DNA of 64,000 bases from Streptomyces lomondensis (GTDB taxonomy: Bacteria; Actinomycetota; Actinomycetes; Streptomycetales; Streptomycetaceae), in contig NZ_BMWC01000012.1 in the NCBI RefSeq assembly GCF_014651035.1, positions 62,001 to 126,000 of the forward strand, given 5' to 3'. The position numbers and the translations under genes were made by a program. The first letter of the stretch is position 1, and every line of letters begins with the position of its first letter. Below the pieces are notes generated by a model. That model was not told where the DNA came from. It saw only the letters and a program-made list of their open reading frames with translations, and did no database searches. Below, piece by piece: positions 20,401 through 42,569 of this stretch.

Positions 20401-21789
20401 TCACTTCGCCGTCCGGGCGAGGAAGGACAGCAGGTCCTGCCGGCTGACCACACCGGTCGGCTTGCCCTCGACGAGGACGATCGCCGCGTCCGCCTTGCCG
20501 AGGACGGCCATCAGATCGCCGACGGGTTCACCGGAGCCGACCTGGGGCAGCGGGGCGGACATGTGCTTCTCCAGCGGGTCGTCGAGCGAGGCGCTCTTGC
20601 TGAACAGCGCGTCCAGCAGCTCGCGTTCCACCACCGAGCCGACGACCTCGGCGGCCATCACGTCGGGGTGACCCGCGCCCGGCTTGACGACCGGCATCTG
20701 CGAGACGCCGTACTCGCGCAGCACGTCGATGGCCTGGCCGACCGTCTCGTCCGGGTGCATGTGGACGAGGGAGGGCATGCGGTCGCCCTCCTTGTCGTTC
20801 AGGACGTCGCCGACCCGGGCGCTCGGGCCCGCGTCCTCCAGGAAGCCGTAGTCGGCCATCCACTCGTCGTTGAAGATCTTGCTGAGGTAGCCGCGCCCGC
20901 TGTCCGGCAGCAGCACCACCACGACGTCGTCCTCGCCGAGCCGCGCGGCGACCTCCAGCGCGGCCACGACCGCCATGCCGCAGGAGCCGCCCACCAGCAG
21001 GCCCTCCTCCTTGGCCAGGCGGCGGGTCATCTGGAAGGAGTCCTTGTCGGACACGGCGACGATCTCGTCCGCGACGGTCCGGTCGTAGGCGGTGGGCCAG
21101 AAGTCCTCACCGACGCCCTCGACGAGGTACGGCCGCCCGGAGCCGCCGGAGTAGACGGAGCCCTCGGGGTCGGCGCCGATGACCTTCACCTTGCCGTCGC
21201 TGACCTCCTTCAGGTAGCGCCCGGTGCCGGAGATGGTCCCGCCGGTGCCCACGCCCGCCACGAAGTGGGTGATCTTCCCCTCCGTCTGCTCCCACAGCTC
21301 GGGGCCGGTCGAGTGGTAGTGGGAGAGCGGGTTGTTCGGGTTGGAGTACTGGTCCGGCTTCCAGGCCCCGGGCGTCTCGCGGACCAGCCGGTCGGAGACG
21401 TTGTAGTAGGAGTCCGGGTGCTCGGGGTCCACGGCGGTCGGGCACACGACGACCTCGGCGCCGTACGCCCGCAGCACGTTGATCTTGTCGGTGCTCACCT
21501 TGTCGGGGCACACGAAGATGCACTTGTACCCCTTCTGCTGCGCCACGATGGCGAGCCCCACACCGGTGTTACCGCTGGTCGGCTCGACGATCGTGCCGCC
21601 GGGCTTGAGCGCGCCGCTCTCCTCCGCCGCCTCGATCATGCGCAGGGCGATGCGGTCCTTCACGGAGCCGCCGGGGTTGAAGTACTCCACCTTGGCCAGG
21701 ACGGTCGCCCTGATGCCCTTGGTCACGCTGTTGAGCCTCACCAGCGGGGTGTTGCCGACGAGGCTGATCATCGAGTCGTGGAACTGCAC
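20401..21789 (-). CDS. cystathionine beta-synthase with C-terminal CBS domain pair
   Basis: A 462-residue PLP enzyme of the cysteine synthase superfamily, condensing serine with homocysteine in transsulphuration. PLP lysine in GGSVKDRIA, the TSGNTG loop, and GVGTGGTISGTGRY bind the cofactor; GGSCGMA closes the active site. Residues ~335-460 form two CBS motifs (SLVHMHPDETVGQAIDVLRE, and MSAPLPQVGSGEPVGDLMAV), absent from cysteine synthases, so cystathionine beta-synthase is preferred over CysK. GTG start at 21789 with CGGAGA upstream. It is divergent from the SGNH hydrolase gene. No haem-binding N-terminal Cys/His segment of the animal enzyme is present. Confidence 0.9.
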   Translation of the reverse strand: MQFHDSMISLVGNTPLVRLNSVTKGIRATVLAKVEYFNPGGSVKDRIALRMIEAAEESGALKPGGTIVEPTSGNTGVGLAIVAQQKGYKCIFVCPDKVSTDKINVLRAYGAEVVVCPTAVDPEHPDSYYNVSDRLVRETPGAWKPDQYSNPNNPLSHYHSTGPELWEQTEGKITHFVAGVGTGGTISGTGRYLKEVSDGKVKVIGADPEGSVYSGGSGRPYLVEGVGEDFWPTAYDRTVADEIVAVSDKDSFQMTRRLAKEEGLLVGGSCGMAVVAALEVAARLGEDDVVVVLLPDSGRGYLSKIFNDEWMADYGFLEDAGPSARVGDVLNDKEGDRMPSLVHMHPDETVGQAIDVLREYGVSQMPVVKPGAGHPDVMAAEVVGSVVERELLDALFSKSASLDDPLEKHMSAPLPQVGSGEPVGDLMAVLGKADAAIVLVEGKPTGVVSRQDLLSFLARTAK

Positions 21790-21949
21790 CGTTGTCTCCG
21801 GATGCCGCAGAAGTGGTTGGTCTTAGTGGTGCCGCCAGCCTATGGCCTCGCCGTGGTCCGTGACGGTCGTTCACTCCCCGTTGAGATTGGGCGACGGTCT
21901 GTACGGGGCAAGCACTGGGTGTACGGGTTCGAGGAGGTGGCGGCGACGC

Positions 21950-22975
21950 ATGTCGAGCATGTCGAGGGCGAGGGTGGCCCGGCGGATCGCGGCCGGCGCT
22001 GCGTACGGCGGCGGCGGGATCGGTCTGGCCGGGGCGGCCACCGTGGGGCTGGTGCTGGCGGAGGTGCAGCTGGCGCGGCGCCGGGTGGGCAACGGCACGT
22101 CGCCGCATGTGCCGAACGCGGACGGGCTGTACGGCCGTACGTACGCCGGTTCCGGTCAGGCGCCGCTGCGGCTGACGATGCTGGGCGACTCCACGGCCGC
22201 CGGCCAGGGCGTGCACCGCGCCGGGCAGACCCCGGGCGCGCTGCTGGCCTCGGGCGTGGCGGCCCTGGCGGAACGCCCGGTGGTGCTGCGCACGGTGGCG
22301 ACCCCCGGGGCCCGTTCGGACGACCTGGACCGCCAGGTGGCCCTGGTGCTGGCCGACCCCGATCCGGTGCCCGACATCTGCGTGATCATGGTCGGCGCGA
22401 ACGACGTCACCCACCGTATGCCCCCGACCCGCTCGGTCCGCTGCCTGTCCTCGGCGGTACGGCGGCTGCGCACGGCCGGTGCCGAGGTCGTGGTCGGCAC
22501 CTGCCCGGACCTGGGCACGATCGAGCCGGTCCAGCAGCCGTTGCGCTGGCTGGCCAGACGGGCCTCCCGCCAGCTGGCGGCCGCCCAGACGATCGGAGTC
22601 GTCGAGCAGGGCGGCCGCACCGTGTCCCTGGGCGACCTGCTGGGCCCCGAGTTCGCCGCCAACCCGCGCGAGCTGTTCGGCCCGGACAACTACCACCCGT
22701 CCGCCGAGGGCTACGCGACGGCGGCGATGGCGGTCCTGCCGACCGTCTGCGCCTCGCTCGGCCTCTGGCCGGCCGAGGAGGAGCGCCCGGACGCCTCCCG
22801 CCGCGAGGGCTTCCTGCCGGTGGCACGGGCGGCGGCGGAGGCCGCCTCGGAGGCGGGCACGGAGGTCGCGGCGGCCATGCCGACCGGCCCGCGGGGGCCG
22901 TGGGCCCTGCTGAAGCGCCGCCGGCGCCGGCGGCTGCCCGAGCAGGAACCGGCCCCGGCCACGCCGTCGAACTAG
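21950..22975 (+). CDS. SGNH/GDSL hydrolase, membrane-associated
   Basis: A 341-residue protein. An N-terminal hydrophobic segment (AAYGGGGIGLAGAATVGLVL) suggests export or anchoring. The SGNH blocks are clear: LGDSTAAGQG (Ser), ANDVTH (Asn; GAND block III), and DNYHPSAEGY (Asp-His). After ~290 comes an Ala/Glu-rich region and a basic tail (KRRRRRRLPEQE). ATG 21950 lies ten bases after GGAGG; ATG 21959 is an alternative. Family members are esterases, lipases or carbohydrate deacetylases; the substrate here is not deducible. Divergent from the cystathionine beta-synthase gene. Confidence 0.87.
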   Translation: MSSMSRARVARRIAAGAAYGGGGIGLAGAATVGLVLAEVQLARRRVGNGTSPHVPNADGLYGRTYAGSGQAPLRLTMLGDSTAAGQGVHRAGQTPGALLASGVAALAERPVVLRTVATPGARSDDLDRQVALVLADPDPVPDICVIMVGANDVTHRMPPTRSVRCLSSAVRRLRTAGAEVVVGTCPDLGTIEPVQQPLRWLARRASRQLAAAQTIGVVEQGGRTVSLGDLLGPEFAANPRELFGPDNYHPSAEGYATAAMAVLPTVCASLGLWPAEEERPDASRREGFLPVARAAAEAASEAGTEVAAAMPTGPRGPWALLKRRRRRRLPEQEPAPATPSN

Positions 22976-22998
22976 AGAGGACCCGGCACGGAAAAAGC

Positions 22999-23006
22999 AA
23001 GCGCTT
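22999..23006. promoter_or_regulatory. AAGCGCTT palindrome upstream of thiolase
   Basis: An 8-bp perfect palindrome about 110 bp before the thiolase start, in an A-rich patch unusual for the region. Possible operator for a fatty-acid-responsive TetR regulator; low confidence. Confidence 0.25.
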
Positions 23007-23114
23007 AGAAAACTGCGGCCAGGGTCACACCGCGACACCCGTGACCCAGCCCATACGTACGGGTAACTTCCCAGACAGCCCAGCCAGACCACCCGGTACG
23101 TCAATGGAGCCGTG

Positions 23115-24332
23115 ATGCCCGAAGCCGTGATCGTCTCAGCCGCCCGCTCCCCCATCGGCCGCGCCGTCAAGGGCTCCCTCAAGGACCTCCGTCCGGACGA
23201 CCTCACCGCGACGATCGTCCAGGCCGCCCTGGCCAAGGTCCCCGAGCTGGACCCGAAGGACATCGACGACCTGATGCTCGGCTGCGGCCTGCCCGGCGGC
23301 GAGCAGGGCCACAACCTCGGCCGCATCGTCGCCGTACAGATGGGCATGGACCACCTGCCGGGCTGCACCATCACCCGGTACTGCTCCTCCTCCCTGCAGA
23401 CCTCCCGCATGGCCCTGCACGCCATCAAGGCGGGCGAGGGCGACGTCTTCATCTCGGCCGGCGTCGAGATGGTCTCCCGGTACGCCAACGGCAGCTCGGA
23501 CATGCCCGGCACGCACAACCCCCTCTTCGCCGACGCCGAGGCCCGCACCGCCGAGACCGCCCAGTCCGAGGGCTCCACCTGGCACGACCCGCGCGAGGAC
23601 GGCCTGCTGCCCGACCCGTACATCGCGATGGGCCAGACCGCCGAGAACCTGGCCCGCGCCAAGGGCGTCACCCGCCAGGACATGGACGAGTTCGGCGTCC
23701 GCTCGCAGAACCTCGCCGAGGAGGCCATCAAGAACGGCTTCTGGGAGCGCGAGATCACCCCGGTGACCCTCCCCGACGGCACGGTCGTGTCCAAGGACGA
23801 CGGCCCCCGGGCCGGCGTCACGATGGAGGGCGTGGCGGGCCTCAAGCCGGTCTTCCGCCCGGACGGCCTGGTCACCGCCGGCAATTGCTGCCCGCTGAAC
23901 GACGGCGCCGCCGCGCTCGTGATCATGTCCGACACCAAGGCCCGCGAGCTGGGCCTCACCCCGCTCGCCCGGATCGTCTCGACCGGCGTCTCCGGCCTCT
24001 CGCCCGAGATCATGGGCCTCGGCCCGGTGGAGGCGAGCAAGCAGGCCCTGCGGCGGGCCGGGCTGACCATCGACGACATCGACCTGGTGGAGATCAACGA
24101 GGCGTTCGCCGCCCAGGTGATCCCCTCCTACCGCGACCTCGGCATCCCGCTGGAGAAGCTGAACGTCAACGGCGGTGCCATCGCCGTCGGCCACCCCTTC
24201 GGCATGACCGGCGCCCGCATCACCACCACGCTCATCAACTCCCTCCAGTTCCACGACAAGCAGTTCGGCCTGGAGACCATGTGCGTCGGTGGCGGCCAGG
24301 GCATGGCCATGGTCATCGAGCGCCTCAGCTGA
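23115..24332 (+). CDS. acetyl-CoA C-acyltransferase (thiolase)
   Basis: A 405-residue thiolase catalysing the last, CoA-dependent cleavage step of beta-oxidation or the reverse condensation. Nucleophile Cys in [10 protein letters not shown] (~residue 90; the common CxSG reads CSSS), the second motif [26 protein letters not shown] with the catalytic His, and the closing Cys in [14 protein letters not shown] are all present. ATG 23115 has GGAG five bases before; GTG 23112 is an alternative. It is monocistronic: a canonical terminator follows. No hydroxyacyl-CoA dehydrogenase lies beside it, so pathway assignment stays general. Confidence 0.93.
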
Positions 24333-26189: not shown

Positions 26190-27101
26190 CTAGTCGTTGC
26201 TGTTGAGGATCGAGATGAGCCTCAGGAACTCCAGGTAGATCCACACCAGCGTCAGCGTGAGGCCGAAGGCCGCGAACCACGCCTCCTCGCGCGGGGCGCC
26301 GTAGGCGATGCCGTCCTCGACCTGCTTGAAGTCCAGGGCGAGGAAGCAGGCGCCGAGGATGATGCCGATGATGCCGAAGACGACACCGAGGGCACCGCTG
26401 CGGAAGCCGAGGCCGTCACCGCCGCCGAACACCGCGAACAGCAGGTTCACGGTCATCAGCAGGATGAAGCCGAGCGCGGCCGCCATCACGAAGCCGTAGA
26501 AGCGGCGGTTGACGCGGATCCAGCCGGCCTTGTAGGCGATCAGCACACCGGCGAAGACCGCCATGGTGCCGAGCACGGCCTGCATGGCCGCGCCGTCGGC
26601 GATGCGGTTGTCGACGATGTTGGACACGACGCCGAGGAAGACACCCTCGAACGCGGCGTACGTCAGGATCAGCGCGGGCGAGGCCTTGCGCTTGAAGGAC
26701 TGCACGAACGCCAGGACCATGCCGATCAGCGCGGCGCCGATACCGATGCCGTAGCTACGGCTGATGTTGGCGTCGTCGACGGGCAGCAGGGCCCAGGAGA
26801 GCGCGGCGGTGAGGATGAGCACACCGAGCGTGCTCGCCGTGCGCATGACGACGTCGTCGATGGTCATCCGGCCGGTGGTGGCCGGGGCCTGCGGCGGCGC
26901 GCCGTACTGCTGCACGTCCTGCTGGGCGTAAGGGTTCTGCGCGTACGGGTTCTGCGCGTACGGGTTGCCCGTCGGCTGCGCGTACGGGTTGCCCTGGGTG
27001 GCGACAGCGGGACCCCCGGCCTGCGGCGCGGTGTTGAAGCCCGCGTAGCCGTTGTCGCGGCTGAACCCCCGTCGCGAGAAGACCGGGTTTCTGCTCCTCA
27101 T
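26190..27101 (-). CDS. Bax inhibitor-1/YccA family membrane protein
   Basis: A 303-residue protein from ATG 27101 behind GGAGGAG. The cytosolic N-terminal ~75 residues hold four NPYAQ repeats, then TTGRMTIDDVVMRTASTLGV leads into seven membrane segments. The C-terminal part (ACFLALDFKQVEDGIAYGAP, REEAWFAAFGLTLTLVWIYL) has the BI-1 acidic residues and closing helix. Bacterial BI-1/YccA proteins act as pH-sensitive ion leak channels or modulate FtsH; no role is shown for Streptomyces members as far as I know. Monocistronic, with its own 214-bp upstream region. Confidence 0.9.
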   Translation of the reverse strand: MRSRNPVFSRRGFSRDNGYAGFNTAPQAGGPAVATQGNPYAQPTGNPYAQNPYAQNPYAQQDVQQYGAPPQAPATTGRMTIDDVVMRTASTLGVLILTAALSWALLPVDDANISRSYGIGIGAALIGMVLAFVQSFKRKASPALILTYAAFEGVFLGVVSNIVDNRIADGAAMQAVLGTMAVFAGVLIAYKAGWIRVNRRFYGFVMAAALGFILLMTVNLLFAVFGGGDGLGFRSGALGVVFGIIGIILGACFLALDFKQVEDGIAYGAPREEAWFAAFGLTLTLVWIYLEFLRLISILNSND

Positions 27102-27315: not shown

Positions 27316-28491
27316 TCACCCGAACGGAAAGCCCGTGTACCCCTCGGCCAGGTCGGTCTCGGCGGCCCGGGAGGAGGCGATCCGCTCCAGCCGGGCGAGC
27401 TGGAGCCGGTCGTCGAAGGGCGTCGCGTCGGGGGTGCGGTGCAGCAGGGTCGTCATGTCGTAGGAGAATCGCTCGGCCTGCCAGACCCGGCGCAGGCAGG
27501 TCCGCGAGTAGGCGTCCAGCAGCTCCGGTGAGCCGGTCTCCTTGCGGTGCGTCAGGGCCCGCGCGAAGGTCACGACGTCGCCGACGGCGAGATTCAGCCC
27601 CTTGGCCCCGGTCGGGGGCACGATGTGCGCGGCGTCACCGGCGAGGAAGAGGCGGCCGTGGCGCATGGGCTCGTGGACGTAGGAGCGCATGGGCGTGACC
27701 GACTTCTGGGTGATCGGGCCGCGCTCCAGGCGCCAGTCGTCGGCGGTCTCGAAGCGGCGCTCCAGCTCGTCCCAGATCTCCTCGTCGGACCACGCCTCGG
27801 CGTCGGTGCCGTCGGGCACCTGGAGGTAGAGGCGGGAGACGGCCGGGGAGCGCATGGAGAGCAGGGCGAAGCCGCGGTCGTGGCGGGCGTAGACGAGCTC
27901 GTCGTGCGAGGGCGGTACGTCGGCGAGGATGCCGAGCCAGCCGAAGGGGTACGTGCGTTCGAAGACCCGGGTCAGTCCGGCGGGGATCGCCTTGCGGGCC
28001 ACGCCCCAGAAGCCGTCGCAGCCGACGATGTACTCGCACTCCAGGACGTCCTCGCGGCCCTCGTGCCGGAAGCGGACGCGCGGGGCGTCGGTGCCGGCGT
28101 CCTCCACGGCCAGGGCCTCCGCCTCGAACAGCAGCGGGCCCCCCTCGGCGAGCTGGAGGGCGATGAGGTCCTTGCAGACCTCCGTCTGGGCGTACACCAT
28201 CACGGACCGGCCGCCGGTCAGCGCGGGGAAGTCGACGCGGTGGCGGCGGCGGTCGAAGCGCAGCTCTATGCCGTCGTGGCGCAGTCCCTCGCGGTCCATG
28301 CGCTCCCCGGCGCCGGCCGCGCGCAGCACGTCCACCGTGCCCTGCTCCAGGATCCCGGCCCGCTGCCGCCGCTCGACGTAGGCGCGGTCCCGGCTCTCCA
28401 GGACGACCGAGTCGATGCCGGCGTTGTGCAGCAGCCGGGCGAGGAGGAGGCCGGCGGGCCCGGCTCCGATGATGCCGACGGTGGTGCGCAT
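27316..28491 (-). CDS. pobA: 4-hydroxybenzoate 3-monooxygenase
   Basis: A 391-residue class A flavoprotein monooxygenase that hydroxylates 4-hydroxybenzoate to protocatechuate with NAD(P)H and O2. FAD motifs: IIGAGPAGLLLARLL at residue 6, CDGFWGVAR (DG motif), and GDAAHIVPPTGAKGLNLAVG. The substrate-site pattern RQRAGILEQGTVDVL is typical of PobA. ATG 28491 after AGAGGGCG; length equals the family norm. Protocatechuate (pca) genes are not nearby. An inverted repeat GTGAA-N6-TTCAC 30 bp upstream is a likely operator, though no regulator gene is adjacent. Confidence 0.93.
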   Translation of the reverse strand: MRTTVGIIGAGPAGLLLARLLHNAGIDSVVLESRDRAYVERRQRAGILEQGTVDVLRAAGAGERMDREGLRHDGIELRFDRRRHRVDFPALTGGRSVMVYAQTEVCKDLIALQLAEGGPLLFEAEALAVEDAGTDAPRVRFRHEGREDVLECEYIVGCDGFWGVARKAIPAGLTRVFERTYPFGWLGILADVPPSHDELVYARHDRGFALLSMRSPAVSRLYLQVPDGTDAEAWSDEEIWDELERRFETADDWRLERGPITQKSVTPMRSYVHEPMRHGRLFLAGDAAHIVPPTGAKGLNLAVGDVVTFARALTHRKETGSPELLDAYSRTCLRRVWQAERFSYDMTTLLHRTPDATPFDDRLQLARLERIASSRAAETDLAEGYTGFPFG

Positions 28492-28520
28492 CGGACGCCC
28501 TCTTCTCGTCTGTTCGTGTG

Positions 28521-28536
28521 GTGAAATTTTCTTCAC
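28521..28536. promoter_or_regulatory. inverted repeat GTGAA-N6-TTCAC in pobA promoter region
   Basis: A perfect 5-bp arm inverted repeat in an AT-rich patch, ending 30 bases before the pobA start. Operator candidate. Confidence 0.5.
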
Positions 28537-28648
28537 TCTTACCCGAATGCGAGTCTCCGACGGCATGCGACCGCTGTCAACGGGTACGCCGCGAACTGCC
28601 CTCGAACGGCCACACAGGACACCCGCCTCCGGGAGGCGGGCCGGCGGT

Positions 28649-28725
28649 TGGTGCCCGGGGTGGGAGTCGAACCCACACTCGACCGCGTTTAAGGCGGTTG
28701 CGTCTGCCAGTTGCGCGACCCGGGC
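28649..28725 (-). tRNA. tRNA with UAA anticodon but short variable loop (class I)
   Basis: Read leftward: acceptor GCCCGGG/CCCGGGC, D arm (GCG..CGC), anticodon stem ACCGC/GCGGT with loop CTTAAAC, a 5-base variable loop CGAGT, T arm GTGGG-TTCGACT-CCCAC, discriminator A, and an encoded CCA. All stems are perfect. Anticodon bases 34-36 are UAA, which would read UUA (Leu), yet leucine tRNAs normally have a long variable arm. It may be a functional noncanonical tRNA, an aberrant leucine tRNA or a preserved pseudogene. It lies 0.95 kb from bldA on the same strand, with an identical anticodon loop. Confidence 0.8.
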
Positions 28726-28957
28726 CAGAACTCACACGGAGACCTGTGGCACAGGCCCCGGGTAACACTGCGTTGTGGAGACGCCCACGGTCGAGACTAC
28801 CGAGATCAGGTGACGGCCACTCACATAGGCCTCGACAAGGCCGGATTGGTCACCACGGTATGTCTCCCCCAAGACGTGCGTTCCTCGTTCCCCCGAGCCG
28901 CGAGGCCCGACGGTAATACCCTCTCGCACGAGAGCCGCTGACACAGGAGCGAAATTG

Positions 28958-28971
28958 GTCAACAGGTTGAC
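28958..28971. promoter_or_regulatory. GTCAAC-AG-GTTGAC palindrome
   Basis: A perfect 6-bp inverted repeat in the 300-bp stretch between the class I tRNA and the decayed AraC gene; GntR-like in shape. No intact gene follows, so it may be a leftover operator. Confidence 0.3.
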
Positions 28972-29019
28972 GCAAATGAGGACGCCCCTCGTGGATGGGG
29001 CGGAGGTCAGCTGACGGTA

Positions 29020-29340
29020 GTGCGTCCCCCGTCGGGCGGCTTCCCGCGGCACAGCCACGACGAGTATGTGAGGTCCGGCGCGCCGCGGCTGGCCGAGCTC
29101 GCCGACGAGGCCGGGATGTCCCGGGGAGCATCTGATCCGGACGTTCACCCGCGCCACCGGTACCCCGCCCTACGCCTGGCACCTGTCGGCCCGGTTGGCC
29201 GAGGCGCGGCGACGGCTGCGCAAGGGTGAGCCCGTCGCTGATGTCGCGCACATGCTCGGCTTCGCCGACCAGGCGCATTTCCACCGCCACTTCGCCGCGG
29301 CCTACGCCATCACACCGGGCCGGTGGCTCGCTGGTGGGCG
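29020..29340 (+). pseudogene. AraC-family regulator remnant
   Basis: The first frame gives SGGFPRHSHDEYV (end of the cupin-like sensor domain) and RLAELADEAGMSRG; a second frame continues with EHLIRTFTRATGTPPYAWHL and LGFADQAHFHRHFAAAYAIT PGRW, the two HTHs of AraC. One surplus G near 29121 separates the frames. Most of the sensor domain is missing. The gene runs out of frame into a LysE-like fragment. Clearly non-functional as written. Confidence 0.75.
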
Positions 29341-29577
29341 ACGCCGTCTGGGCGGTGCTCGGCCTGGCGGGGGTGGGGGCGCTGTTCGCGGTGCCGGCCC
29401 TGCGCGTGCCGCTCACCGTGGCCGGGTGCTTGTTGCCGGCCTGGTCGGGGGTGTCGGGCCTGCGCGACGCGCTCGCGCCGCAGGGCGCTGCCGCCACTGG
29501 CCGTACGCGTACTCGAAGCCTGCTGCGGTCTCTCGCTCCTGGTCTTCGCGATTCTCCAGCTGGGCCGAGTCATATGA
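29326..29577 (+). pseudogene. LysE/RhtB-family exporter remnant
   Basis: One frame reads SLVGDAVWAVLGLAGVGALF and VPLTVAGCLLPAWSGVSGLR; a shifted frame near 29480 continues LPPLAVRVLEACCGLSLLVF AILQLG and stops at 29577. These match middle and C-terminal membrane helices of LysE/RhtB amino acid exporters; the N-terminal third is lost. AraC-type and LysE genes are often neighbours, so a deletion has fused the remains of such a pair. Confidence 0.55.
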
Positions 29578-29677
29578 CGAAGATCTCCGCATTGAGGACC
29601 TGAGCGCGGGCTTCCGCCGCCGTTGACAGGGTCTCGGGCATTCATTTTCGTCAGATCAGACCGTATGCGCATGAAGT

Positions 29678-29761
29678 GCCCGGAGCCGGACTCGAACCGG
29701 CACGCCCGCGAAGGGGCAGCGAGGTTTAAGCTCGCCGTGTCTGCATTCCACCATCCGGGCA
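29678..29761 (-). tRNA. bldA: tRNA-Leu(UAA), bldA
   Basis: Read leftward from 29761: acceptor GCCCGGA/TCCGGGC, D arm GTG..CAC with AATGCAGA loop, anticodon stem GCGAG/CTCGC with loop CTTAAAC (anticodon UAA), a long variable arm (TGCCCCTTCGCGGGCGT), and T arm GCCGG-TTCGAGT-CCGGC. The CCA end is not encoded. In Streptomyces this tRNA translates the rare UUA codon and its loss blocks sporulation and antibiotic production, so it acts as a developmental switch. An inverted repeat (GTCCCGA..TCGGGAC, 29784-29802) and an AT-rich tract (29835-29850) lie upstream. Confidence 0.93.
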
Positions 29762-35096: not shown

Positions 35097-36485
35097 TCAG
35101 GAGGCCTTGGCCTTCTCCTCGGTCTTCTCCTTCGGCGCGGAGGCGACCGGGGCCGGCTTGGCGGCCTCGTAGAACTCCTCGCGCGGCGTCTCGATGGCGC
35201 CGAGCGAGACGACCTCGCGCTTGAGGAACATGCCCAGGGTCCAGTCGGCGAAGACGCGGATCTTGCGGTTCCAGGTCGGCATCGCCAGGCCGTGGTAGCC
35301 ACGGTGCATGTACCAGGCGAGACGGCCCTTGAGCTTGATCTTCATCTTGCCCATGACGATCATCGCGACGCCCTTGTGGAGGCCGAGACCGGCCACCGCG
35401 CCCTTGTTGGCGTGCGAGTAGTCCTTCTGCGGGAAGCCCCGCATGCCGGACAGCACGTTGTCGCCGAGGACCCGCGCCTGGCGCAGCGCGTGCTGGGCGT
35501 TCGGCGGGCACCAGGCGTTCTCGTTGCCCGCCTTGCGGCCGACGAGGTCCGGGACCTGGGCGTTGTCGCCGGCGGCCCAGATGTAGTCGGTGCCCTTGAC
35601 CTGGAGCGTCGGCTCGCAGTCCACGTGGCCGCGGGGGCCGAGGGGCAGGCCGTAGCGGGAGAGGACCGGGTTGGGCTTGACGCCGGCGGTCCAGACGATG
35701 GTGTTGGAGTCGACCTCGAGGCCGTTCTTCAGCACCACGTGGCCGTCGACGCAGGAGTCCATGGAGGTGGACAGGTAGACCTCGACACCGCGGCCCTCGA
35801 GGTGCTCCTTGCCGTACTTGCCGAGCTTGGGGCCGACCTCGGGGAGGATCTTGTCGGCGGCGTCGACGAGGATGAAGCGCATGTCCTCACGGGACACGTT
35901 CTTGTAGTACTTCGCCGCGTCGCGGGCCATGTCCTCGACCTCGCCGATGGTCTCCGCACCGGCGAACCCGCCGCCCACGAAGACGAAGGTGAGCGCCTTG
36001 CGGCGGATCTCCTCGTCGGTGGTGGAGTCGGCCTTGTCGAGCTGCTCGAGGACGTGGTTGCGCAGGCCGATGGCCTCCTCGATGCCCTTCATGCCGATGC
36101 CCTGCTCGGCGAGGCCGGGGATCGGGAAGGTGCGGGATACCGCGCCGAGCGCGACGACCAGGTAGTCGAAGGGCAGCTCGTAGGCCTCGCCGACCAGCGG
36201 GGAGACCGTGGCGACCTTGCGGTCCTGGTCGATGGTGGTGACCCGGCCGGTGAGGACCTCCGCCTTGGGCAGCACGCGTCGCAGCGGGACGACGACATGG
36301 CGAGGGGAGATGTTGCCGGCGGCGGCTTCGGGGAGGAAGGGCTGGTAGGTCATGTACGACCGGGGGTCGACGACCGTGACGGTCGCCTCTCCGTAACGCA
36401 TCTTCTTCAGAATGCGTCGAGCTGCGTACAGGCCTACGTACCCACCGCCTACTACGAGGATCCTGGGACGCTCCGTGGTGCTCAT
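35097..36485 (-). CDS. ndh: type II NADH dehydrogenase
   Basis: A 462-residue single-subunit, non-proton-pumping NADH:menaquinone oxidoreductase. FAD motif VVGGGYVGLYAARR, NADH motif FVFVGGGFAGAETIGEVED, AAGDNAQVPD before the FAD ribityl site, and a C-terminal amphipathic membrane-binding region (GKMKIKLKGRLAWYMHRGYH, RVFADWTLGMFLKREVVSLG). The last 40 residues are a charged Ala/Lys/Glu tail. A TTGTGAA-N4-TTCACGAA sequence at 36805-36823 resembles a Rex operator, which would repress ndh at high NAD+/NADH balance. The leader between that site and the ATG is long (about 320 bp). Confidence 0.93.
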   Translation of the reverse strand: MSTTERPRILVVGGGYVGLYAARRILKKMRYGEATVTVVDPRSYMTYQPFLPEAAAGNISPRHVVVPLRRVLPKAEVLTGRVTTIDQDRKVATVSPLVGEAYELPFDYLVVALGAVSRTFPIPGLAEQGIGMKGIEEAIGLRNHVLEQLDKADSTTDEEIRRKALTFVFVGGGFAGAETIGEVEDMARDAAKYYKNVSREDMRFILVDAADKILPEVGPKLGKYGKEHLEGRGVEVYLSTSMDSCVDGHVVLKNGLEVDSNTIVWTAGVKPNPVLSRYGLPLGPRGHVDCEPTLQVKGTDYIWAAGDNAQVPDLVGRKAGNENAWCPPNAQHALRQARVLGDNVLSGMRGFPQKDYSHANKGAVAGLGLHKGVAMIVMGKMKIKLKGRLAWYMHRGYHGLAMPTWNRKIRVFADWTLGMFLKREVVSLGAIETPREEFYEAAKPAPVASAPKEKTEEKAKAS

Positions 36486-40532: not shown

Positions 40533-41222
<690 letters not shown>

Positions 41223-41228
41223 TCACCG

Positions 41229-41372
41229 ACGCCTGCGAGGTGAGCTGTCGGGTTCGGGCCGGTTGAGTTGCCCGGCCGCGCCCCTCCCGGGACGCGGCTT
41301 CACCCCAAGCCCTTCCGGCACAACTGTCCGGTCGGGCGCCTACCTTGGGTCCCCCGCTCCTGCCTACGGCGC
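41229..41372 (-). ncRNA. ydaO-yuaA (c-di-AMP) riboswitch of rpfA
   Basis: Read leftward, the leader contains the conserved blocks GGGGGACCCA, TTGGGGTGAAGCC and CCCGAACCCGACAGCTCACC then TCGCAGGCGT. The first and last parts close a P1 stem (GCGCC with GGCGT). The boundaries given are the P1 ends. The ribosome binding site (GAGGGG) follows within about 10 bases, so control may involve the start region or an attenuator. c-di-AMP normally turns such genes off. Confidence 0.88.
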
Positions 41373-41609
41373 TTGACGCGACGACTGTTCCCGGACGGCC
41401 GCTGGCAGGATTCGGCGTTGCGGCAGCCGGGGCTCGCGGTGACGAGCGGTCATGACCGTAGACACGCGATCCGCGGAATTTCAAAGACGATCAGGGCTTC
41501 TGAGATCTATCTCTCACCACGCTTATACGGGACATTCAGCCCGAAACATGACGCGAACTCGCGCGGTTTCGGGGCGACTTCCGCCGCCGTTTCCGCTCTG
41601 CCCCACCGG
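41373..41609 (-). promoter_or_regulatory. rpfA promoter region
   Basis: The 240 bp between the rpfB-like stop and the riboswitch hold no gene. An AT-richer section (about 41480-41560, with TATAAG on the minus strand near 41525) is the likely promoter. Confidence 0.35.
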
Positions 41610-42569
41610 CTACTTCTCGTCCGCTTCGACCTCTACCGTGAGCCTCTGACCGGGGCGGATGAGGTTCGGGTCGGTGCCGACGGCCTGCTGGTTGCCGGCG
41701 TAGAGCGCGCGCCATCCGCCGCTGACATCAAGGGAGTCGGCGATGGACCAGAGGCTGTCGCCGGGGCGGACGACGTAGGAGCCGTCCGCCACACCCCGAG
41801 AGGCGTCGCCGCCGCGCGAGGCGTGCCGGCCCGAGGACTCGTCCGTACGGCCGTCCACGGCGGCGGTGTCCTCGTCGGCGCTGGGGCCGCGGTGGCGGCC
41901 GGAGCCGGTGTCGGTCAGCGCCGAAGAGGTGCCGTCCTGCTGCGAGTTGTCGGGCTTGTCACTCTCGGAGCCGGCCGAGTCGGAGCTGTCGGGCTCCTGA
42001 CCCTGCGCCGTGGAGTCGGCGGAATCGGACGACTTGTCGGAGTTGGCCGGTTCGCCCTCCGGCGTCGACGGTGCGTCAGGAGACGGGGACGACGACGGGG
42101 TCGATGACGAGGGGGTCGACTCGGAGGAGTCGAGCAGTCCCGGCGAGTCGGTCGGCTCGGAGGAGTCGGACGAATCGGATGTGCCCGACTGCGAGTCCTG
42201 CTGGAGACCGGAGAGCAGGCCGCAGGTGCGCCACGCGCCGACCCCTTGGTCGGCGAGGATTCTCTCGGCCACGGCTATCTGCTGGGAGCGGCTGGCCAGG
42301 TCGGCGCTCGCGGCGTAGTCGAGGCCGCCGTACTTCTCCCAGTCCTCCTGGGACAGCGCGAGGCCGCCGAAGTAGCCGTTGCCGCTGTTCTGGCTCCACG
42401 CGCCGCCGGTCTCGCAGTCCGCCACCCGGTCCCAGGTCGTGCCGTCGGCCGCGCTGGCACCGGAGGCCCCGAGGAGCGGGATCGCGATGGCGGAGCCGGT
42501 CACTCCGGCCGCGACGAGGAGAGCCGGAGCCTGGCGGGGGCGACGGTGCCGACCGTTCCCGGAGAGCAT
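41610..42569 (-). CDS. rpfB: Rpf-like transglycosylase with LysM domain (RpfB-like)
   Basis: A 319-residue secreted protein. Signal peptide to ~38 (LVAAGVTGSAIAIPLLGASG), Rpf domain (WDRVADCETGGAWSQNSGNG, YFGGLALSQEDWEKYGG; catalytic Glu in CETGG), a long acidic Ser/Asp/Pro linker of about 130 residues, and a C-terminal LysM (YVVRPGDSLWSIADSLDVSG, DPNLIRPGQRLTVEV). ATG 42569 after AAAGG. It lacks the riboswitch seen before rpfA. The linker suggests spanning or display across the wall. The symbol follows the S. coelicolor naming of the gene beside rpfA, from memory. Confidence 0.85.
   Translation of the reverse strand: MLSGNGRHRRPRQAPALLVAAGVTGSAIAIPLLGASGASAADGTTWDRVADCETGGAWSQNSGNGYFGGLALSQEDWEKYGGLDYAASADLASRSQQIAVAERILADQGVGAWRTCGLLSGLQQDSQSGTSDSSDSSEPTDSPGLLDSSESTPSSSTPSSSPSPDAPSTPEGEPANSDKSSDSADSTAQGQEPDSSDSAGSESDKPDNSQQDGTSSALTDTGSGRHRGPSADEDTAAVDGRTDESSGRHASRGGDASRGVADGSYVVRPGDSLWSIADSLDVSGGWRALYAGNQQAVGTDPNLIRPGQRLTVEVEADEK

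Follow-up and report, generated by a model that had tools for sequence, protein, structure and literature searches.

A second UAA-anticodon tRNA gene lies downstream of bldA

The window analyzed here, a 64,000-nt stretch of the Streptomyces lomondensis genome (G000), contains two tRNA-Leu(taa) genes called by ARAGORN, one at 28649-28725 (-) and the other, bldA, at 29676-29760 (-). The features surrounding them are as follows.

20401-24332 (strand.): cbs - GDSL lipase - thiolase block, beyond BaxI and in the same conserved surroundings (Pfam, synteny)
26190-27101 (-): Bax-inhibitor-1-like gene, downstream boundary of the slot (Pfam BaxI_1, synteny)
27316-28566 (-): pobA-like FAD-binding monooxygenase gene, next gene downstream of the tRNA (Pfam FAD_binding_3)
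28622-28640 (-): G+C-rich hairpin CCCGCCTCC/GGGAGGCGGG, directly 3' of the tRNA, without a U tract (sequence)
28649-28725 (-): class I tRNA-Leu(UAA), 77 nt, encoded CCA (ARAGORN; RF00005, 56.4 bits)
28649-28652 (-): discriminator A73 and encoded CCA (sequence)
28677-28681 (-): variable loop CGAGU, five bases; U48 can pair with A15 (sequence)
28687-28693 (-): anticodon loop CUUAAAC, as in bldA; anticodon UAA at 28689-28691 (sequence)
28719-28725 (-): 5' strand of the acceptor stem, GCCCGGG (sequence)
28726-29675 (-): spacer from bldA to the class I tRNA; its tRNA-proximal part aligns with relatives at 60-73% (flank alignment)
about 29040-29330 (+): AraC-type-regulator-like ORF fragments within the spacer (ORF list, visual reading)
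29676-29760 (-): bldA, class II tRNA-Leu(UAA) (ARAGORN)
35097-36485 (-): NADH dehydrogenase-like gene (ndh), upstream boundary of the slot (Pfam Pyr_redox_2, synteny)

The first-pass annotation described the gene at 28649-28725 as a tRNA with a UAA anticodon, an encoded CCA and a five-base variable loop, lying 0.95 kb from bldA, with which it shares the strand and the seven-base anticodon loop. ARAGORN, Rfam and the sequence itself confirmed each of these points. The Rfam tRNA model (RF00005) matched 28652-28725 (-) with 56.4 bits, against a gathering score of 29, and bldA scored lower with the same model (50.9 bits in a whole-genome search). The gene parses as GCCCGGG-TCGCGCAACTGGCAGACGCA-ACCGC-CTTAAAC-GCGGT-CGAGT-GTGGGTTCGACTCCCAC-CCCGGGC-A-CCA. 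All pairs form in the acceptor (GCCCGGG/CCCGGGC), anticodon (ACCGC/GCGGT) and T (GTGGG/CCCAC) stems. The D stem consists of three pairs and a C.A at positions 13-22, so that "perfect", the word initially used for the cloverleaf, slightly overstates it. With a variable loop of 5 nt, the tRNA belongs to class I and lacks the long arm found in bldA (17 nt).

A simple promoter/terminator scan revealed neither a sigma-70-like promoter nor a classical terminator at the tRNA; an empty promoter scan is weak evidence in Streptomyces. The hairpin immediately downstream, which the scan did not flag, is a possible terminator. ARAGORN also called a tRNA-Gly at 22078-22170 (+) and a tRNA-Arg at 42308-42409 (+) in the window, both probably false as they received no support from the Rfam tRNA model. 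Elsewhere in the window, a c-di-AMP riboswitch (RF00379, 65.8 bits) was found at 41215-41381 (-), just upstream of a gene at 40533-41210 (-).

The tRNA is conserved in a minority of Streptomyces

Using two search patterns that differed in strictness, we found a short-armed UAA tRNA besides bldA in 5 of 393 Streptomyces genomes (S. lomondensis and 4 of 392 others, about 1%). A sixth match of one pattern, in G070, was rejected as it did not look like a tRNA. Our scan of GTDB contigs revealed a further carrier, S. tibetensis (L172), beyond the 393 genomes. Across S. tibetensis and the four other Streptomyces genomes, the tRNA is 82-99% identical, the copy of G140 being the most divergent. This recurrence rules out a chance tRNA-like sequence, a view also rejected on the RF00005 score.

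The gene of the window is 88-99% identical to those of S. tibetensis, G354, G009 and G177, whereas the flanks are only 60-73% (300 nt upstream) and 42-53% (120 nt downstream) identical in the same four comparisons. A tRNA that is held while its flanks drift suggests a gene under selection. The first-pass annotation had called for orthologues to be sought in other Streptomyces and had considered a pseudogene devoid of conservation. Orthologues are present in S. tibetensis, G354, G009 and G177, and a pseudogene is at odds with the intact stems and with an orthologue identity well above that of the flanks (42-73%), though the gene occurs in only about 1% of Streptomyces.

Between bldA and the class I tRNA on its downstream, BaxI-facing side there are 0.3-1 kb in the window, S. 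tibetensis and G354. The distance is 11 kb in G009, where the tRNA still adjoins pobA and BaxI. The pobA-like gene also adjoins the tRNA in G009, G177 and S. tibetensis, as detected by tblastn. We found no decayed relic of the class I gene above shuffled scores in five Streptomyces non-carriers. In a small species tree with weak deep supports, carriers were dispersed among non-carriers.

Short-armed leucine tRNAs for UUA and UUG are widespread in Actinomycetota

The GTDB contig scan returned at least 119 stretches, in which ARAGORN called at least 113 tRNA-Leu(taa) genes of class I length fitting the pattern; these counts outside Streptomyces are lower bounds. Among the matches listed, nearly all came from Actinomycetota, with a few from Planctomycetota, Cyanobacteriota, Myxococcota and Armatimonadota. 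For most of the non-Streptomyces genomes tested, no UAA tRNA other than the class I gene was found. Across 148 genomes of the class, a survey revealed a single UAA tRNA in most cases, its length being that of class I or class II depending on the family; most families had a single one of class I length. In Corynebacterium pelargi and Pauljensenia hongkongensis, whose sets were compiled from Rfam lists and ARAGORN runs on long tRNAs, only class I tRNAs were found for UUA and UUG, and class II tRNAs were seen for the other leucine codons.

The genome of S. lomondensis itself follows a similar division. Its single Leu(CAA) found is class I (C1:1369539-1369614; L215 9540-9615 (-)), and Leu(CAG), Leu(GAG) and Leu(TAG) are class II. 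The Rfam search of this genome, read together with ARAGORN, was not exhaustive, since it found no tRNA-Tyr; a second method, a search with a CAA pattern, agreed on Leu(CAA). Therefore, this strain appears to read UUG with a short-armed tRNA. The pattern search revealed a class I Leu(CAA) in ten other Streptomyces as well and a class II Leu(CAA) in G140, which is class switching within the genus. Short-armed tRNA-Leu for UUA and UUG are thus widespread in Actinomycetota, many of which use them as their normal readers of these codons.

Two further loci had unusual tRNA-like features. G417, a member of another Streptomycetaceae genus, carries tandem class I-type UAA tRNAs (L247 8504-8583 and 8613-8686 (+)) besides bldA, one of which has an odd 3' half. 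S. lomondensis also has a match of about 104 nt that resembles a tRNA-Ser but has a large insert in its anticodon arm (L222, G000:C8:196695-196825); it received no ARAGORN call.

One chromosomal slot holds UUA tRNAs of both classes

In other families, class I UAA tRNAs are embedded in the order ndh - tRNA - BaxI - thiolase - GDSL lipase - cbs, with the same orientation. This order is fully preserved in one Geodermatophilaceae contig (L077) and partly so in dozens of others. By synteny, the class II UAA tRNAs of other families occupy the same ndh-to-BaxI slot. The Streptomyces version of the slot contains bldA and, towards ndh, an additional ABC transporter and cfa-like gene. The window shares this synteny, and its slot also contains pobA in addition to bldA. 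A single slot thus houses the UUA tRNA, of class I or class II and including bldA, throughout the class. It follows that bldA and the class I tRNA occupy one ancestral UUA-tRNA locus, at which the resident tRNA has switched class more than once.

The tRNA of the window shares with bldA its anticodon, anticodon loop, A73, slot and strand, and nearly the same acceptor (GCCCGGA in bldA, GCCCGGG here). Unlike bldA, it lacks the long variable arm, has D arm and T arm sequences of class I type, and is restricted to about 1% of the Streptomyces sampled. It resembles the class I tRNA-Leu(UAA) family of Arthrobacter, Microbacterium, Corynebacterium, Nocardia, Pseudonocardia and others, as defined in this analysis, in shape, five-base loop, U48, A73, T arm (GTGGGTTCRANTCCCAC) and slot. 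It differs from this family in its acceptor (GCCCGGG rather than GCCCCC..) and D arm (TCGCGCAA..AGACGCA rather than TAGCCCAA..AGAGGCA), both of which are closer to those of class II UAA tRNAs of other families. Moreover, genomes with members of this family mostly lack a class II UAA tRNA, whereas the genome of the window has bldA.

Outside the anticodon stem and variable loop, the tRNA of the window showed a resemblance of up to 0.90 to class II UAA tRNAs of other families and of up to 0.88 to class I ones. Since its core is slightly nearer to class II, the short arm may have arisen independently, through a possible loss of the long arm in this lineage. A tree of tRNA cores placed it on the class I side, with 69 columns that resolve little.

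The tRNA is expected to be charged with leucine

The first-pass annotation took the class I shape as a reason to doubt leucine charging and suggested that the tRNA could act uncharged at UUA codons. Leucyl-tRNA synthetase of E. coli requires A73, A15-U48, G18G19 and A20a, not the long arm, and tRNAs without this arm remain active (PMC9976931). All the leucine identity elements taken from that source (A73, U8:A14, A15-U48, G18G19 and A20a) are present in the sequence of the window tRNA. Likewise, 108-112 of the 112 class I UAA relatives listed have U8, A14A15, the D-loop motif (G18G19, A20a), U48 and A73. In conserved proteins encoded by the fetched loci, UUA codons fell in leucine columns in 6/6 strict columns and UUG codons in 48/53. 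Together, the identity elements and the leucine columns support leucine charging with fair confidence. The doubt raised by the shape is further countered by the class I Leu(CAA) of the same genome and by the many Actinomycetota that have only a class I tRNA for UUA.

The class I shape, together with the hybrid tRNAs for which Streptomyces offers precedents, could be taken to mean that another amino acid is charged and inserted at UUA. We regard such misreading as scarcely credible. Within S. lomondensis, the nearest tRNAs are the class I Leu(CAA), followed by class II tRNA-Leu, the leucine identity elements are retained, and class I UUR tRNAs elsewhere must insert leucine. The Leu(CAA), which is the best match in the genome, shares the shape and the leucine elements but differs by its anticodon and its locus, and is identical at 54/74 positions. 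The idea that the tRNA of the window arose from another class I isotype of this genome through a mutated anticodon was rejected, the nearest tRNAs being leucine tRNAs.

The anticodon loop identical to that of bldA and the close linkage of the two genes would suit a tRNA that competes at UUA codons without being charged, or one that serves there as a special regulatory RNA. This role is very improbable, because the only tRNA found to read UUG in the genome is a Leu(CAA) of the same shape, class I tRNAs are the only UUA readers found in many Actinomycetota, and the discriminator, the CCA and the identity elements are intact.

We conclude that the tRNA of the window is probably a functional class I leucine tRNA that reads UUA. 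It would be transcribed from its own promoter and charged by the ordinary leucyl-tRNA synthetase, as the class I Leu(CAA) of the same cell must be, and would insert leucine at UUA alongside bldA. UUA decoding in the strain would thereby be partly or wholly independent of bldA. Against this reading stand the low number of carriers (5/393), the location of the G140 copy in a mobile element, the empty promoter/terminator scan and the fact that none of the 49 genes called mechanically in the window contains a TTA codon. For this last reason, a need for extra UUA reading is not evident in the window.

A prophage-like element of G140 carries a class I UAA tRNA

In G140, about 103 kb of prophage-like DNA (C1 about 6074840-6177560; L246, L280-L283, L047, L278) separate bldA from pobA/BaxI. 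An integrase-like ORF directly follows bldA, and a 15-nt repeat of a piece of the bldA T arm (CCGGTTCAAGTCCGG) lies at the far edge, pointing to the 3' end of bldA as the putative attachment site of this element. The element's class I UAA tRNA is situated 8.5 kb inside it, with tail and endolysin genes nearby. TTA-bearing genes are commoner in the element (10/92) than in the G140 flanks and the window combined (1/86; Fisher p about 0.01, mechanical gene calls). Furthermore, the phages Wakanda and Rey have short tRNA-Leu genes. These phage genes and the short-loop Leu(TAG) described in a horizontally acquired Mycobacterium cluster (PMC6582537) resemble the tRNA of the window in their short variable loop and in belonging to actinobacteria or their phages, but they have other anticodons and are clustered on mobile DNA, whereas the tRNA of the window resides in a conserved chromosomal slot.

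Because the G140 copy sits on a prophage-like element at bldA, a phage origin is a live rival: the tRNA could be the passenger of an element that used the 3' end of bldA as attachment site and was later lost, leaving the tRNA silent or marginal. We consider this the less likely reading, as upstream flanks are alignable in five genomes that have the tRNA beside pobA or BaxI, the tRNA has been retained despite the divergence of its flanks, neither the window nor G009 yielded an attachment repeat, and the G140 copy is the most divergent. Alternatively, the tRNA could be a tandem copy that stayed in the ancestral slot and disappeared from most species; this route fits the synteny, the conservation and the scattered carriers, with the lack of relics in the five non-carriers and the weakly supported species tree as points against it. 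The gene is thus either a tandem copy retained in the ancestral slot or the leftover of a phage that integrated at bldA.

Implications for UUA decoding in Streptomyces

To our knowledge, bldA has long been regarded as the sole reader of the rare UUA codon in Streptomyces. A 2016 survey of six Streptomyces species found one UUA tRNA gene in each (PMC4932002). In the open-access literature, we found no paper on a class I tRNA-Leu(UUR) family, on a slot shared with bldA or on a second Streptomyces UUA tRNA. According to a 2023 review, every tRNA-Leu except those of animal mitochondria has a long arm (PMC9976931), a statement at odds with the repeated switching of class by tRNA-Leu(UAA) at a single locus. 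Exceptions are hinted at in the literature by the short-loop Leu(TAG) of Mycobacterium mentioned above (PMC6582537) and by Mycobacterium tuberculosis, in which only tRNA-Leu-2, 3 and 5 are named as long-looped, implying that the other tRNA-Leu lack long loops (PMC11541572). Annotators are also warned that short-armed leucine tRNAs should not be dropped as pseudogenes.

Our results uphold the view that a real and conserved second UAA-anticodon tRNA, with a bearing on the UUA switch, lies beside bldA. Since the strain carries this second, intact and probably UUA-reading leucine tRNA, UUA reading may not rest on bldA alone. More tentatively, and with some doubt, we propose that some Streptomyces, a minority, use two different leucine tRNAs for UUA, of which one has a short arm and lies beyond known bldA control, which would make the switch leaky or rewired, and that phages integrating at bldA may evade the UUA gate of their host in the same way.

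The bldA model rests on a single UUA reader, and species with two readers are natural tests of it. In strains with a second reader, TTA-containing antibiotic genes might work without bldA. The timing of expression of the tRNA of the window, whether early, late or never, would determine if it bypasses the bldA switch, backs it up or leaves it unaffected. This tRNA therefore represents a testable exception to the bldA-only rule.
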